From Flavobacteriaceae bacterium (GTDB lineage: Bacteria > Bacteroidota > Bacteroidia > Flavobacteriales > Flavobacteriaceae), in NCBI GenBank assembly GCA_028825365.1, contig JAPKAF010000003.1, forward strand, positions 1 to 60,687: a stretch of 60,687 bases of DNA. The letters are read 5' to 3'. Below are positions 19,871 through 60,648 of this stretch, in pieces. Made by a program: the position numbers and the translations under genes. Below the pieces are notes generated by a model. It was not told where the DNA came from, ran no database searches, and saw nothing but the letters and a program-made list of their open reading frames with translations. The first letter of the stretch is position 1. Each line of letters begins with the position of its first letter.

Positions 19871-20764
19871 TTCATCTATAGTTTTTATTATATTTTTTAC
19901 TTTGTAATTTTGACTAAACCAAATTATATTTTTCTTTGACTTAAACCAAGTCACTTGTCTTTTAGAAAATCTTCTTGTATTTTTTTTAATTTCATCTATT
20001 GCTAAGTCTAAATTTAGCTCCCCACTTAAGTAGTTAAATATCTCTTTGTAGCCAATAGTATTCAAACTATTTAATTTTTTATATTCTAGCAATTGTTCAA
20101 CTTCATTAACTAGACCATCTTTAATCATTTTATCCACCCTATTATTTATCCTCTCATAAACTATTTCTCTATCTGCATTAATCCCTATTTCAATTACTTT
20201 AAAGCCGCGATTAATCTTTGTTTTTTTTAAATAGGAAGAATAAGGTTTCCCACTTGAGATTGTAACTTCTAATGCTCTAATTATTCTCCTGTGATTTTTT
20301 AAATCAATACTATTATAGGTAGTTAGATCTAATTTCTTTAATTTATTCTGCAGATAAATTATACCTTTAGTTTCAAGTTCATTATTTAATAATTCTCTTA
20401 AACTATTTTCAATTTTAGGTATTTTATCAAGTCCATAGATTATTGCATCTACATATAGTCCTGATCCACCAACTAAGATTGCAAGATCTGATTTTTCATG
20501 AATATTATTTATGATTTCAATAGTATCTTTTTCAAATTCTCCTAAGGTGTATATTTCTGTGATACTTTTATTATTAATTAAATGATGTTTAACATCATTT
20601 AATTCCTTGTTTGAAGGTTTCGCCGTCCCTATGTTCATTTCTTTATAAAACTGCCTAGAATCAGCTGATATGATCTCTGTATTGTAATAATTAGCTAATA
20701 CTAAGGATAGGTTAGTTTTACCAATTGCAGTTGGCCCAACTATTGTAATTAAGTATTTATCCAT
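19856..20764 (-). CDS. miaA: tRNA dimethylallyltransferase
   Basis: MDKYLITIVGPTAIGKTNLSLVLA; SADSRQFYKEMNIGTAKP; start at 20764 overlaps the 3' end of the upstream channel gene. Confidence 0.96.
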   Translation of the reverse strand: MDKYLITIVGPTAIGKTNLSLVLANYYNTEIISADSRQFYKEMNIGTAKPSNKELNDVKHHLINNKSITEIYTLGEFEKDTIEIINNIHEKSDLAILVGGSGLYVDAIIYGLDKIPKIENSLRELLNNELETKGIIYLQNKLKKLDLTTYNSIDLKNHRRIIRALEVTISSGKPYSSYLKKTKINRGFKVIEIGINADREIVYERINNRVDKMIKDGLVNEVEQLLEYKKLNSLNTIGYKEIFNYLSGELNLDLAIDEIKKNTRRFSKRQVTWFKSKKNIIWFSQNYKVKNIIKTIDELINN

Positions 20765-21590
20765 CCGTAAGTGGCTCACCACATTTTGAGCAAAAGATTG
20801 CATCATCAGAATGTTTGTTCTTTAAACAATTTGAGCATGATTGTGTATTTAATTGTATCTCTTTTCTTTCTGTTAGTGTCATATTTGAAGTGACTATTCC
20901 TGTAGGTATTGCAATAATGCCATAACCTAATATCATTATTATTGACGATATAAATTTGCCTAAAGCTGTAAAAGGTACGATATCACCATAACCTACGGTC
21001 GTTAGTGTAACTATAGCCCAATAAATGCTTTTAGGAATATTTTCAAACCCACTATTAATATTGCCTTCAATCAAATACATCATAGCTCCTAAAATCACAC
21101 AAAGAATAATAACAAATAACAAAAAGACTATAATTTTTGCCCTACTTGCTAATAATGATCTTCTTAAGTTAGTTGAAGCCCCTATAAACCTATTCATTTT
21201 TAATATTTTAAATATTCTCATTAGTCTTAAAGCTCTAAGTGCTGCTATAGGTTGCGCACCTACTACAAATAATGAAATATATTTAGGAATTATTGATAGT
21301 AAGTCAATTACTCCATAAAAACTAAATATGTACCTAAAAGGTTTTTTTACAGAAACTATTCTTAATATATATTCGACAGAAAATAAAACTGTAATTATCC
21401 ACTCACTATAGTTCAGAAAATTAATATATCTTGAGCTGATCCCGTCTAAACTTTCTATAATTACAAGAAAAACACTTAGTATTATAAAAAACAGTAGAAT
21501 TATATCAAATACTTTACCCGCTTTAGTATCGGCTTCATAAATTACTTCATGAATCTTTTTCCTCAAAGAACCTACAGGTTTACTGCTCAT
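20757..21590 (-). CDS. Six-TM voltage-gated-like potassium channel with C-terminal zinc-ribbon-like motif
   Basis: S4-like RALRLMRIFKILKMNRF; filter TTVGYGDIVP; C-terminus CSNCLKNKHSDDAIFCSKCGEPLTDG. Confidence 0.92.
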   Translation of the reverse strand: MSSKPVGSLRKKIHEVIYEADTKAGKVFDIILLFFIILSVFLVIIESLDGISSRYINFLNYSEWIITVLFSVEYILRIVSVKKPFRYIFSFYGVIDLLSIIPKYISLFVVGAQPIAALRALRLMRIFKILKMNRFIGASTNLRRSLLASRAKIIVFLLFVIILCVILGAMMYLIEGNINSGFENIPKSIYWAIVTLTTVGYGDIVPFTALGKFISSIIMILGYGIIAIPTGIVTSNMTLTERKEIQLNTQSCSNCLKNKHSDDAIFCSKCGEPLTDG

Positions 21591-21594
21591 TTTT

Positions 21595-22956
21595 TTAGTA
21601 TTGTAAAAGTTTTACTTTTTTTGATTTCTTTAAAAAGCTTTGTATTATTAGTTGGTTGTCTTTGTTTTGATCCATTTTTATCAAAATTGTTTTTAAAACA
21701 TCAATATTGTTTATTTGAAAGTTTAAGTTAAAATATCCTAAACCAATAAACAAACCATCTTCTACTAAAATAAAACTATTTTCATCTACATTTCTTCCTT
21801 TATCAATAATAGCAAAATTTTGTTTGTCAAAATTTAGGTACTTAATAGCTTTTAAAATTCTTAGATTATAATCTTCATATTTCTCCAAATTAATACAGGC
21901 CCCAGAGCATTCTTTAATTGTGTACTTAAAACAACTATTTTTAGACTTGTAAATTCCACAAAGTTTTTGACACAGATTGTATTCATTGATAAGCTTATTT
22001 AAAAACGCTATACCTGCATTAATATTTTTAAACGTAGTTATTGGTTTTGTAGAAGTATTAATTTTAGAAATCTTTAAATTTATATAGTTATTTTCATCAT
22101 TAGAGCTATAAAGTCCATAAGGATAAACACTTTTTCTTAGCTTTCTATTGTAGATAGGTTTATGTAATTTGATTTGATTACTCTCTTTTAGTAAAGCAAT
22201 TAATTCACTTCCTGTTTCATCATAACTAACGGTTTCCGTATGTAATTGTAACTTTTTAGATTTATTGTCTTTGCCTGCAAAATGCTGGTTAATTCTTTTT
22301 TTTATGTTTTTACTCTTACCTATATAAATTATCTTAGAATTTTCATCATGCATATAGTATATACCAACACTGTTAGGCAAATCATCTAAAATTTGACTCA
22401 ATTTTTTAGACAAACTTTTTTTATTACTATTTTTTATATTTTCAATAATAATTTTTTTCTCTAAATCTTTATCTAGTAATAATTTAAATAACTTAACTGT
22501 AGCTAGAGCATCTCCACTAGCTCTGTGGCGTTGAGTAAGAGGTATTCCTAGTTGTTTGGTTAGTTTACCTAGACTATAAGAATCCATATCTGGGATTAAC
22601 TTTTTTGATAATTCTAAAGTACATAATGTGTTTCTTTTAAAATTATAGCCAAGTCTACTGTATTCAGTTTTTAATATTCTATAATCAAAGGATGTGTTAT
22701 GTGCAACAAAAATTGTGTCTTCAGTTATTTCTAAGATTCTTTTAGCAACTTCGTGAAACTTAGGTGCATTGCGAAGCATTTTATTATTAATACCTGTAAG
22801 ATTAACTACAAAAGGCTGAATACTTTTTTCTGGGTTAATTAAAGATATAAACTTATCGACTACTTCATTACCGTCAAATTTGTAGATAGCAATTTCTGTA
22901 ATTCCTTCCTCATTGAATTTCCCTCCAGTAGTCTCTATATCAATAATGCTATATAT
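21595..22956 (-). CDS. DnaQ-like 3'-5' exonuclease fused to GIY-YIG (UvrC-type) nuclease domain; apparent ATA start
   Basis: Supplied ORF starts at ATG 22779, but the frame continues upstream: (ATA)YSIIDIETTGGKFNEEGITEIAIYKFDGNEVVDKFISLINPEKSIQPFVVNLTGINNKM..., containing ExoI DxE; GIY-YIG part SVGIYYMHDENSKIIYIGKSKNIKKRINQH. Confidence 0.85.
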   Translation of the reverse strand: MYSIIDIETTGGKFNEEGITEIAIYKFDGNEVVDKFISLINPEKSIQPFVVNLTGINNKMLRNAPKFHEVAKRILEITEDTIFVAHNTSFDYRILKTEYSRLGYNFKRNTLCTLELSKKLIPDMDSYSLGKLTKQLGIPLTQRHRASGDALATVKLFKLLLDKDLEKKIIIENIKNSNKKSLSKKLSQILDDLPNSVGIYYMHDENSKIIYIGKSKNIKKRINQHFAGKDNKSKKLQLHTETVSYDETGSELIALLKESNQIKLHKPIYNRKLRKSVYPYGLYSSNDENNYINLKISKINTSTKPITTFKNINAGIAFLNKLINEYNLCQKLCGIYKSKNSCFKYTIKECSGACINLEKYEDYNLRILKAIKYLNFDKQNFAIIDKGRNVDENSFILVEDGLFIGLGYFNLNFQINNIDVLKTILIKMDQNKDNQLIIQSFLKKSKKVKLLQY

Positions 22957-22965
22957 GATAATTTT

Positions 22966-23619
22966 TTAATTTCTAGATCCAAAAATATTACTACCAACTC
23001 TAATCATGTTACTTCCGCAATTTACAGCAAGTATATAGTCATTACTCATACCCATAGACAATGTTTTTATATTTTTATCAGTTTTTTTGAATTCGTTAAA
23101 AAAATCATTTAATAAATTAAATTCCTTTTTTAGTATAGATTGCTCACTTGTATTACTAGCCATCCCCATAAATCCAGTTATATTAATGTTTTCTAGTGCT
23201 GAAACAAATTCTGATTTTAATAAGTCTGAAGCTTCTTTATATGTTAGACCAAACTTACTCTCTTCTGAAGATATTTTTATTTGAATTAAACAGTCTATTT
23301 TTCTATCATTTTTTTTTGCCTGTTTATTTATTTCTTTCAAAAGTTTTAAGTTGTCAACTCCGTGAATTAGGTTTATAAATGGAGCAATGTACTTTACTTT
23401 ATTTCTTTGAAGATGCCCTATCATATGCCAGTTGATATCCTTTGGTAAGTTGTTTTGTTTTGATACAAGCTCTTGTACTTTATTTTCACCAAAAATTCGT
23501 TGCCCAAATTTATAGGCTTTCGTAATTTCAATTTCACTTTTTGTTTTTGAAACTGCAACAAGACTGACTTTACTGCCAATCTCTGATTGAATTTGACTTA
23601 TTTTTTTTTCTATACTCAT
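22966..23619 (-). CDS. yggS: YggS/PLPBP family pyridoxal-phosphate homeostasis protein
   Basis: VSLVAVSKTKSEIEI; FGENKVQEL; WHMIGHLQRNKVKYI; LSMGMSNDY. Confidence 0.95.
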   Translation of the reverse strand: MSIEKKISQIQSEIGSKVSLVAVSKTKSEIEITKAYKFGQRIFGENKVQELVSKQNNLPKDINWHMIGHLQRNKVKYIAPFINLIHGVDNLKLLKEINKQAKKNDRKIDCLIQIKISSEESKFGLTYKEASDLLKSEFVSALENINITGFMGMASNTSEQSILKKEFNLLNDFFNEFKKTDKNIKTLSMGMSNDYILAVNCGSNMIRVGSNIFGSRN

Positions 23620-38445: not shown

Positions 38446-40551
38446 TTAGCCTATGTAGCTCCATAGGTCATTGTTTTGGGCTATGTGATTGTAGGTGTTT
38501 AGTAATGTTTTATTTTTGTTATCCAAAAGATCTTTATCTTCTTCAAGTATTTTTTTAGCGCATTTTCGTGCGTAAGTTAATATTTCTTGATCTGACATCA
38601 AATCTGCAATTTTTAGTGTGATAACTCCGCTTTGTTGTGTCCCCATTATGTCTCCAGGGCCTCTAATTTCTAAATCCTTTTCAGCAATTATAAAACCGTT
38701 ATTAGTTTCAGTCATGGTTTTAATCCTTAATCTGCTTTCGTTGCTAAGTTTATTTCCAGACATTAATATGCAGTAGCTTTTGTGTATGCCTCTTCCGACT
38801 CTTCCTCTTAATTGATGTAGTTGAGATAGGCCAAACCTTTCTGAACTTTCAATTACCATTACTGAGGCGTTAGGTATATTAACTCCAACTTCAATCACAG
38901 TAGTTGCTATTAGTATTTGAGTTTCCTTATTTTCAAACCTTTTCATTTCAAACTCTTTATCTTGAGCTTTCATTTTTCCATGTACTATGGATATTTGATA
39001 CTTGGGCTGTTCAAATTCTCTTGAAAGACTTTCATAGCCATCCATTAGATCTTTAAAGTCCATGTTTTTACTCTCTTCAATCAATGGGTATACAACGTAA
39101 ACTTGTCTGCCTTCATTTATTTGATCTTTAATAAATCTAAATACACTAAGTCTGTTTTTGTCATATCTATGAACAGTAGTGATTTCACGTCTGCCTGGGG
39201 GTAATTCATCAATTAAAGATATGTCAAGATCTCCATAAGCGCTCATTGCTAAAGTTCTTGGAATCGGTGTGGCCGTCATTATTAGTATATGCGGAGGAAT
39301 CACACTTTTTGCCCATAATTTACTTCTTTGAGCTACTCCAAATTTGTGCTGTTCATCAACTATTGCAAGACCTAAATTTTTGAATTTTACTTTGTCTTGA
39401 ATTAAGGAATGAGTCCCAATTATAATATCAATTTCTCCACTCTCTAATGACTTATATATGTCTTTTTTAATTGAAGCTTTAGTTGACCCTGTTAGTAGTA
39501 CTGTATTGATATTAAGTAATTTAGACATTAATAAAAATCCTTCATAGTGTTGTACTGACAAAATTTCAGTAGGAGCCATTAAGCAAGCTTGATACCCATT
39601 ATCTAACGCTATTAAAATTGTCATGAACGCTATTATAGTTTTACCAGAGCCAACATCACCTTGAAGTAACCTGTTCATTTGGGCTTTACTACCTAAATCA
39701 TTTCTAATTTCTTTTAACACTTTCTTTTGAGCATTAGTTAATTCAAAGCTTAAAACTTCATCATAAAACTTATTAAAATTATTTCCTACTATATTAAAAT
39801 TGTATCCTTTGATTTTGTCTTTTCTATATATATTTTTTTTTAATAATTGTAACTGTAGAAAAAGTAATTCTTCAAATTTCAATCTTCTTATCGACTCAGA
39901 TAATAGCTCGTTATTTTCAGGAAAATGAACATTATAAATAGCACTATTTTTATCTAACAGTTTTAATTCATTTATTAAGTAATCAGGAAGAGTTTCTTTA
40001 AATTTTATTTTAATATCAAAGAGTAGGATTTTCACCAAGTTAGAAATCACTTTATTACTAACTCCTTTTTTAATTAAAGTTTCTGTTGATGGGTATATAG
40101 GCTGTAGTTTAGCTCTTAGCTTAAGATTTTCAGTTTTAAATAGTTCTAGTTCTGGATGTGGAATAGATACTTTGTTTGCAAAAAAGCTAAGCTTACCAAA
40201 TATTATGTATTTAGTATTTAAGTTCAAGCTCTTTTTTAACCACTTTATAGACTTAAACCAGATTAATTCAATTTCGTCTTCTCCATCATAAAAATATGCA
40301 ACCAACCTTTTTTTTCTACCTATGCCTATTTCAGTAATATTTGAAATTTCACCAATAATTTGTACGTCGCAACTGAATTTTGGTAAGTCTTTAATCTTAT
40401 AATACTTAGATTTATCTAAATATCTCTTAGGAAAAAAATTTGCTAAGTCTTTATAATCAAAGATCTTTAATTCTTTTTTTATTAATTCAGACCTGCTGGC
40501 TCCAAGACCTTTTAAATAATCAATTGGTGTATTTAGTAAATTAGAATTCAT
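38446..40551 (-). CDS. recG: ATP-dependent DNA helicase RecG
   Basis: LLQGDVGSGKTIIAFM; DEQHKFGVAQR; TATPIPRTLAMS; QLHQLRGRVGRG. Confidence 0.98.
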   Translation of the reverse strand: MNSNLLNTPIDYLKGLGASRSELIKKELKIFDYKDLANFFPKRYLDKSKYYKIKDLPKFSCDVQIIGEISNITEIGIGRKKRLVAYFYDGEDEIELIWFKSIKWLKKSLNLNTKYIIFGKLSFFANKVSIPHPELELFKTENLKLRAKLQPIYPSTETLIKKGVSNKVISNLVKILLFDIKIKFKETLPDYLINELKLLDKNSAIYNVHFPENNELLSESIRRLKFEELLFLQLQLLKKNIYRKDKIKGYNFNIVGNNFNKFYDEVLSFELTNAQKKVLKEIRNDLGSKAQMNRLLQGDVGSGKTIIAFMTILIALDNGYQACLMAPTEILSVQHYEGFLLMSKLLNINTVLLTGSTKASIKKDIYKSLESGEIDIIIGTHSLIQDKVKFKNLGLAIVDEQHKFGVAQRSKLWAKSVIPPHILIMTATPIPRTLAMSAYGDLDISLIDELPPGRREITTVHRYDKNRLSVFRFIKDQINEGRQVYVVYPLIEESKNMDFKDLMDGYESLSREFEQPKYQISIVHGKMKAQDKEFEMKRFENKETQILIATTVIEVGVNIPNASVMVIESSERFGLSQLHQLRGRVGRGIHKSYCILMSGNKLSNESRLRIKTMTETNNGFIIAEKDLEIRGPGDIMGTQQSGVITLKIADLMSDQEILTYARKCAKKILEEDKDLLDNKNKTLLNTYNHIAQNNDLWSYIG

Positions 40552-59259: not shown

Positions 59260-60648
59260 GTGATAAAGACTGATACAATTATAGCTTTAGCAACTCCCCC
59301 TGGAATTGGTGCAATATCAGTTATAAGACTTTCTGGAATTGATTCAATTATAATTTCTAACAAACTATTTAAGGCTTTAAATAATTTAGATCTTATTACT
59401 CAAAAGACCCATTCAATTAACTTAGGGTATATAATGGATTCTAAAACTATAATTGATAAAGTTTTAATATCTGTTTTCAAAGCTCCTAGATCTTATACTG
59501 GCGAGAATATTGTTGAGATATCCTGTCACGGAAGTGTGTTTATACAGCAAAAAATACTCGATTTATTCACAAGTAATGGTTGTAGGCTAGCTGACCCTGG
59601 AGAATTCACTTTAAGAGCTTTTTTAAACGGAAAAATGGATTTAAGTCAAGCAGAATCAGTTGCTGATTTAATTTCAAGTACAAGTGAATCTTCACATAAA
59701 ATTGCAATGGATCATATGAGAGGTGGCTTTAGTGAGGATATAAAGTTACTTAGAGAAGAGCTGTTGAACTTTGCTTCCTTAATTGAGTTAGAGCTTGATT
59801 TCTCAGAAGAAGACGTTGAATTTGCTAATATGAAAGCTTTTGAGGATCTACTAGTTAAAATTATATCAACACTTAAGAACCTTATTGATTCTTTCTCTTT
59901 GGGTAATGTAATTAAGGATGGAATTCCAATTTCAATAGTAGGGGAGCCAAATACTGGGAAGTCAACTTTGTTAAACTCTATTTTAAATGAGGATAAGGCT
60001 ATAGTTAGTAACATTGCAGGAACCACAAGAGACTCTATAGAAGATGAAATTGTTATAAATGGGATCAACTTTAGATTTATTGATACTGCAGGTATTAGAA
60101 CTACTGAAGATGAAATTGAATCAATAGGTATAAGAAAGACTTTTGAAAATATTAATAAATCTAATATTGTTTTATATGTTATTGACTCTTCAAAAGTTAG
60201 TAGTGATAATTTAGATTCTACAAAAGGTAAAATTGATAAACTAATTAGTACTTACTTAAACAAAAATATTTTACTCATAGCTAATAAAATTGATCTTGGT
60301 AATCTTTCATTTATTGAGCAGGAATTTTCAGACTATGATTTAATATCCATAAGTGCTAAAGACAATTTAAATATAGATAAGGTAAAAACTAAGATTTCAT
60401 CCTACATTGAGTTAGGGATAGTAAATAATTCAAGTTCAGTCGTTACTAACTCAAGACATTTTAGTGTACTAAATAACGCACTCACAGAGGTTCAAAATGT
60501 ATATAGTGGTATGAAAGATGGTATTTCAAGTGATTTACTTGCAGTTGATGTTAGACAGGCTCTATATCACTTTGGGGAACTTACTGGTGAAATCACTAAT
60601 GATGAATTACTAGGGAATATATTTTCTAAATTTTGTATTGGGAAGTAA
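59260..60648 (+). CDS. mnmE: tRNA modification GTPase MnmE (GTG start)
   Basis: DTIIALATPPGIGAISVIRLSG; VGEPNTGKSTLLNSIL; DTAGIRTTEDEIESIGI; C-terminus FSKFCIGK. Confidence 0.98.
   Translation: MIKTDTIIALATPPGIGAISVIRLSGIDSIIISNKLFKALNNLDLITQKTHSINLGYIMDSKTIIDKVLISVFKAPRSYTGENIVEISCHGSVFIQQKILDLFTSNGCRLADPGEFTLRAFLNGKMDLSQAESVADLISSTSESSHKIAMDHMRGGFSEDIKLLREELLNFASLIELELDFSEEDVEFANMKAFEDLLVKIISTLKNLIDSFSLGNVIKDGIPISIVGEPNTGKSTLLNSILNEDKAIVSNIAGTTRDSIEDEIVINGINFRFIDTAGIRTTEDEIESIGIRKTFENINKSNIVLYVIDSSKVSSDNLDSTKGKIDKLISTYLNKNILLIANKIDLGNLSFIEQEFSDYDLISISAKDNLNIDKVKTKISSYIELGIVNNSSSVVTNSRHFSVLNNALTEVQNVYSGMKDGISSDLLAVDVRQALYHFGELTGEITNDELLGNIFSKFCIGK

Follow-up and report, generated by a model that had tools for sequence, protein, structure and literature searches.

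Where does translation begin in a gene whose reading frame holds no ATG, GTG or TTG ahead of the codons for its active site? The question is raised by a nuclease gene that follows yggS in the window, by which we mean the whole stretch of 60,687 nt analysed here, taken from a contig of a 96-contig, 1.43 Mb assembly of a Flavobacteriaceae bacterium. The minus-strand frame of this gene runs TAA (the yggS stop, 22968-22966)-AAA-ATT-ATC-ATA (22956-22954)-TAT-AGC-ATT-ATT-GAT-ATA-GAG, and no canonical start appears in it before the ATG at 22779-22777, which is codon 60 if ATA is counted as codon 1. The first-pass annotation had described the frame behind yggS as free of ATG, GTG, TTG and CTG for 59 codons and had expected the initial Met at the ATA; the sequence is exactly as described, and the family alignment puts the start at that codon. 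Among 53 long open frames of the window, two more reach a canonical start only after more than 60 codons (39983-40291 on the plus strand and 59712-60251 on the minus strand), and these may be antisense to real genes. Scans for promoter-like and terminator-like sequences around the nuclease gene gave background counts only. The features of the locus are as follows.

21595..22956, minus strand: exonuclease/GIY-YIG nuclease gene, ATA start to TAA stop, 453 codons
22954..22956, minus strand: ATA start codon; ATA in the 4 genus genomes with the gene, ATT/ATC/TTG/ATG/GTG in other genera
22936..22953, minus strand: codons 2-7, with family-wide locked codon choice and out-of-frame starts purged; consensus TAC GCA ATA NTN GAC ATA
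22486..22947, minus strand: DEDDh (DnaQ-like) exonuclease domain PF00929; catalytic D6, E8, D91, H144, D149
22153..22365, minus strand: GIY-YIG nuclease domain PF01541 (Pfam match)
21895..21972, minus strand: UvrC/Cho-like cysteine region; C329, C342, C350, C354 kept in 96-97%
22777..22779, minus strand: internal ATG (Met60), the standard ORF-finder start; a conserved internal residue, not a start
22966..23619, minus strand: yggS (PLP-binding YggS family); upstream neighbour in 182 of 195 loci examined
22957..22965, minus strand: 9 nt gap from the yggS stop to ATA, read from the sequence
20757..21590, minus strand: downstream gene, ion-channel-type protein with zinc ribbon; a neighbour only, with no link to the start codon shown

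The encoded nuclease and its N-terminus

The protein matches the RNase_T/DnaQ-type exonuclease domain PF00929 (Pfam E=6e-35) and the GIY-YIG domain PF01541 (Pfam E=2e-11). Residues D6, E8, D91, H144 and D149 are 100% conserved in 167 aligned orthologues, as is characteristic of a DEDDh exonuclease. In the second domain, G198-Y200, Y211-G213, R221, E258 and N270, together with the four cysteines, are kept in 90-100%, with the exception of I199, where the residue is mostly Val, and I212, which is Ile in 86%. These motifs, the Arg, Glu and Asn residues and the cysteines are those of the UvrC/Cho group of GIY-YIG nucleases, and the UvrC structure 1yd6 was matched. By analogy with UvrC, we take C329, C342, C350 and C354 to be a probable metal or Fe-S site. 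The best NCBIfam matches are the PRK07883 DEDD exonuclease models, with a top score of 262 bits where the cut-off is 495, and because such scores reach at most about half of the curated cut-offs, the flavobacterial nucleases are placed by their sequences on a branch separate from the PRK07883-type fusions. The product would be a nuclease of the DNA-repair type, combining a DEDDh 3'-5' exonuclease with a Cho/UvrC-like GIY-YIG endonuclease, and its role is presumably in repair. For the mycobacterial fusion of a Cho-like GIY-YIG domain with an epsilon-type exonuclease, an incise-then-digest repair role has been proposed (PMC1564403). The flavobacterial protein shares both nuclease domains, and their order, with the PRK07883 and mycobacterial fusions (PMC1564403), but no unusual start has been noted for other DEDD + GIY-YIG fusions.

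Standard ORF calling begins at the internal ATG, and Met60 is present in 166 of the 167 aligned orthologues. Translation from this codon would shorten the protein and deprive it of the first exonuclease motif. However, the DxE motif (D6, E8), which had been located upstream of ATG 22779 when the locus was first annotated, is borne out by its conservation, and D6/E8 and the DIETTGG block occur in all orthologues, even those with ATG at codon 1. Moreover, the matched DinG exonuclease carries Met at the homologous internal site. A start at Met60 is thus very improbable.

Start codons in the genus and the family

Because the assembly is fragmented and 72.6% complete, a base error had to be weighed. 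Three more genomes of the genus encode the nuclease (84, 80 and 79% protein identity), and all three have ATA at the same codon and no in-frame canonical start upstream; in a fifth genus genome (64% complete), the gene is absent from the assembly. The start-codon alignment across close relatives that had been proposed as a check therefore gives ATA in all four genus genomes with the gene, at 8-9 nt from the yggS stop. The codon pair AT[CT]-ATA is also common to all four, and within the genus alone ATA and the preceding ATC/ATT are not separable; the family alignment favours ATA. The first-pass annotation had further considered a single ATG>ATA change, or that read-through of UAA could yield a YggS-nuclease fusion; the former could be an error of assembly or base calling. 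The fragmented assembly and the frame shared by yggS and the nuclease in the window speak for these explanations, yet in locus L004 the gap is 8 nt, not 9, and yggS is in a different frame, so read-through cannot be the mechanism there, and the frames are mixed over loci. An error is contradicted by ATA in four genomes and by ATT, ATC or ATA starts (hereafter ATH, or AUH in mRNA) in about 40 genera, some of them in single-contig genomes. Both explanations have practically no credibility left.

The gene is present in 379 of 400 sampled Flavobacteriaceae genomes. Codon 1 of 168 full-length orthologues, most of them drawn by a pattern limited to 12 ATN/GTN/TTN codons at this position, is TTG in 62, ATG in 45, ATT in 43, ATC in 7, ATA in 6, GTG in 4 and AAT in 1, the last with a TTG one codon upstream; loci from the protein search, which had no such restriction, gave the same codon set. 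The pattern search with codon 1 open to ATN/GTN/TTN found matches in 352 of the 400 genomes, and among the matches listed (150) the codons were TTG 49, ATG 45, ATT 38, GTG 11, ATC 4 and ATA 3, with no other. The best 27 loci outside the genus start with ATT, ATC, ATA or TTG, and none with ATG. Within Flavobacteriaceae, Leu at codon 1 is always TTG and Val always GTG, and TTA, GTA and GTT never occur. Thus, codon 1 is a start and not an internal hydrophobic residue.

An upstream in-frame canonical start is lacking in 55 of the 59 ATH genes, 10 ATH genes have a stop at codon -2, and in one of the four exceptions (L221) a TTG lies immediately 5' of codon 1 and is probably the start. The first downstream canonical codon in ATH genes falls at codon 19-60, always beyond D6 and E8, and no canonical in-frame start can yield the conserved protein. 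The start is conserved over species and is not an isolated mutation, as evidenced by the four genus genomes and by the about 40 genera with ATH starts (by the genus assignment of the sampled genomes). Initiation of the AUA/AUU type, the first of the explanations originally offered, is strongly supported by this distribution. Outside Flavobacteriaceae, 14 pattern matches from the same class have ATG, TTG, GTG or TTA and none has ATH, and order-level matches start with ATG or TTG.

Several variants of the gene were seen along the way. Short nucleases (about 360-373 aa, without the C-terminal part) have ATG, GTG or TTG starts and never ATH (L095, L096, L101, L144, L145, L153, L159, L160, L177-L179, L182, L183, L186-L188, L195-L197, L202 and L219). 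Two loci of one genus (L200 and L201) have an ATA-started frame of 174 aa that holds the exonuclease part alone, which may be a split gene or a frameshift. Assembly G336 (L034 and contig C77) contains the start region twice, once with ATT and once with TTG, the latter copy at a contig end, which suggests a strain mixture or a duplication.

On a FastTree phylogeny of the 168 proteins, the start class switches 45 times, compared with a shuffled mean of 80. Changes between ATH and other starts number 27, at least 13 of which are forced by well-supported branches, and changes between ATG and other starts number 16. ATT and TTG starts are found together inside single genera; since the passage from ATT to TTG needs two substitutions, the lineage passes via ATG or a poor codon. 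The repeated exchange of ATH and TTG would be the pattern expected of selection for a weak start.

Sequence context, yggS and control genes

Codon choice just behind the start is unusually fixed. Over 188 conserved columns, codons 2, 3, 4, 6 and 7 deviate strongly from expected usage, and codon 7 is ATA in 149 of 160 against a background of 25%. From codon 8 onwards the deviation declines toward background, and most of the other strongly deviating columns are Ser, whose codons belong to a split family. In generic open frames, codons 2-7 are not fixed in this way (GAC 29%, TAC 27%, ATA 44%), and a generic 5'-end codon bias does not account for the fixed choice at codons 2, 6 and 7. When GAC and ATA were compared with weak starts in phylogenetically independent pairs, codons 6 and 7 went in the expected direction, with too few differing pairs for significance.

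The same region is nearly free of competing starts. Compared with synonymous randomisation, and with counts not corrected for the shared ancestry of the genes, out-of-frame ATG in +1..+24 numbers 0 in 118 ATH and TTG genes against 0.53-0.63 per gene expected, while out-of-frame ATG/GTG/TTG numbers 0.29 in ATH and 0.11 in TTG genes against about 1.5. Predicted structure is also weaker than in randomised sequences (ATH/TTG -3.7/-3.9 versus -5.7/-5.9 kcal/mol). In ATG-start orthologues the purge is weaker, with out-of-frame ATG at 0.31 versus 0.63 expected and canonical starts at 0.84 versus 1.43. Canonical starts are likewise depleted in the 25 nt upstream of ATH and TTG genes (0.14/0.06 versus 0.47/0.42 shuffled), whereas no depletion is seen upstream of ATG-start genes (1.16 versus 1.03). 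A purge of competing starts would otherwise be hard to explain and thus gives separate support for the start at codon 1. SD-like 4-mers occur in 3 of 56 ATH genes, and the strong or extended SD motifs of S. aureus-type AUH starts are not found. This scarcity is what one expects of Bacteroidetes, in which structure and adenines upstream of the start tune initiation (PMC6847099). In ATH genes, A is found at -12 in 75% and at -11 in 85%, to which the yggS stop TAA contributes.

It is conceivable that ribosomes ending yggS restart at a close weak codon, in which case the start itself need not be efficient. This proposal draws on the presence of yggS upstream in nearly all loci, the 8-9 nt gap in the genus, and a gap below 31 nt in about half of the ATH genes. 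However, yggS-to-start gaps of ATH genes range from 6 to >130 nt, all three frames are represented among the 37 ATH loci with a gap below 60 nt (15/8/14), and short gaps are equally seen at ATG and TTG genes. Coupling to yggS termination, which had been suggested for this locus at the outset, is thus possible in the window with its 9 nt gap but, given the gap lengths and mixed frames, is rejected as a general mechanism. We consider reinitiation unlikely as the explanation of these starts.

The gap has a further peculiarity of its own. Perfect 7-nt tandem arrays, such as (TTTTAAC)n, (CAGTGAG)n, (AATGAAT)n and (AGACAGT)n, crowd just 5' of the start, with 10 in 7.8 kb of yggS-nuclease gap versus 6 in the remaining 469 kb of these loci, and five of these 6 lie within 230 nt upstream. 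The infC/ruvX control loci contain 0 in 198 kb, and no arrays of period 5, 6, 8, 9 or 10 were found in the scanned loci. The seven loci with gap arrays (L047, L050, L127, L156, L207, L224 and L225; in L156 the array spans -74 to -2 from codon 1) all have ATH starts, and a looser (TTTTAAC)2 occurs in L015, L046, L048, L075, L110, L120, L148 and L170. The units contain stop codons, which land in all three frames. Heptamer repeats 5' of start codons have been described in Beggiatoaceae, in Cyanobacteria and in some Bacteroidetes (PMC4679880).

Among the control genes, infC has an ATA start in 30 of 30 sampled family genomes (L231-L260), in a conserved setting of ATA-GCA-AT[AT]-(CGN/AGA). The ruvX gene, in which the catalytic Asp is equally close to the N-terminus, has ATG in 22, TTG in 3 and GTG in 2, and ruvC (L291-L320, nearest-start rule) has ATG in 15 and TTG in 14, with one undetermined. 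No ATH start occurs among the ruvX and ruvC control loci, so start selection is not generally relaxed. By the same nearest-start rule, roughly one in two of the family genomes sampled appears to have a TTG-started ruvC, which suggests that repair genes of Flavobacteriaceae commonly begin with TTG.

A putative weak start, its possible control and its relatives

We read codon 1 as a weak but genuine AUH start by which expression of the Cho-like nuclease is limited, and on the sequence evidence we give this reading a probability of about 85%. The position of the start, its conservation and its cleaned context can be read from the aligned genes themselves. Initiation would take place at AUA 22956-22954, presumably via initiator fMet-tRNA and with low yield, and a start at codon 1 would give an N-terminal peptide of the type (M)YAILDIETTGGK(Y/F)NEEGITEIAIYK. 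The family appears to hold the gene mostly at weak starts, AUU/AUC/AUA or UUG, and less often at AUG/GUG. Such a start may be usable without an SD sequence through a low-structure mRNA that is nearly free of rival starts on both sides. The likely purpose would be to keep a potentially harmful nuclease scarce. As a quarter of the orthologues are ATG-started, a weak start is not essential everywhere.

How the weak start might be used is less certain. It is possible that the nuclease is tied to initiation fidelity through discrimination of IF3 against AUH, as for infC. IF3 represses non-canonical starts in E. coli as well as the GTC start of Streptomyces sigR, and does not discriminate against TTG (PMC5472188). 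Since TTG starts are tolerated by IF3 and yet match ATH starts in frequency, IF3 can hardly be the sole reason for these starts. A simpler explanation is that the weak start caps the amount of a nuclease harmful in excess without any IF3 regulation, and we regard this as having a little less than an even chance. It agrees with the abundance of TTG, with the frequent exchange on the tree and with the tolerance of IF3 for TTG (PMC5472188), and E. coli pcnB provides a precedent in the passage of PMC1780047 that cites it. However, a poor context would limit the nuclease equally well, yet structure and competing starts have been cleaned away, and infC is AUA-started in the same genomes. A controlling role of IF3 for the nuclease is a tentative proposal, and we attach similarly modest odds to the wider idea that Flavobacteriaceae may possess an IF3-controlled set of AUH-start genes, comprising at least infC and the nuclease and freed from SD sequences by purged competitors and structure.

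To our knowledge, AUH starts are known for only a few bacterial genes. The nuclease resembles infC (which encodes IF3, uses AUU/AUC/AUA and is under IF3 autocontrol) in having an AUH start that is conserved over a wide clade and easily mis-annotated; unlike infC, which is invariably ATA here, it shifts among six codons, and its control by IF3 is hypothetical. E. coli pcnB, the poly(A) polymerase gene with an AUU start, is similarly a nucleic-acid enzyme kept low, according to the passages on it in PMC1780047 and PMC13009471, but E. coli employs Shine-Dalgarno sites. Streptomyces sigR also has a conserved non-canonical start, is stress-related and is mis-annotated in available genomes, although its GTC/GTT starts come with a strong conserved RBS and its IF3 control is experimental (PMC5472188). 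Conserved AUH starts outside infC are further represented by S. aureus ccpN (AUA) and cvfC1 (AUU) (PMC13009471) and by Listeria rnhC (ATC; PMC13068326), which is also a nuclease gene; the S. aureus sites rely on extended SD motifs, whereas the nuclease is SD-free with rival starts purged. In Borrelia burgdorferi pncA/BBE22 (AUU), the truncated annotation drops the N-terminal catalytic Asp, as it would here, but that case concerns one metabolic gene of one spirochaete, for which a structure has been determined experimentally (PMC13398362). The kind of start is therefore already known from infC, pcnB, sigR, Borrelia pncA, S. aureus ccpN/cvfC1 and Listeria rnhC. New are the gene and the phylum, the scale across the family with its near-cognate exchange, and the SD-free, competitor-purged context; no reports of this nuclease's start codon were found among the open-access papers searched.

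Gene finders accept only ATG, GTG and TTG, and the catalytic N-terminus of the nuclease is therefore likely mis-annotated in many genomes. If the proposed control by IF3 is true, limiting IF3 or lower initiation fidelity would result in more nuclease, thereby linking the state of translation to DNA repair or degradation. The natural swaps of ATT, ATC, ATA, TTG, GTG and ATG in one nearly universal nuclease constitute a ready-made experiment, and they offer a route to learning how a ribosome that is not guided by SD sequences locates a weak start.
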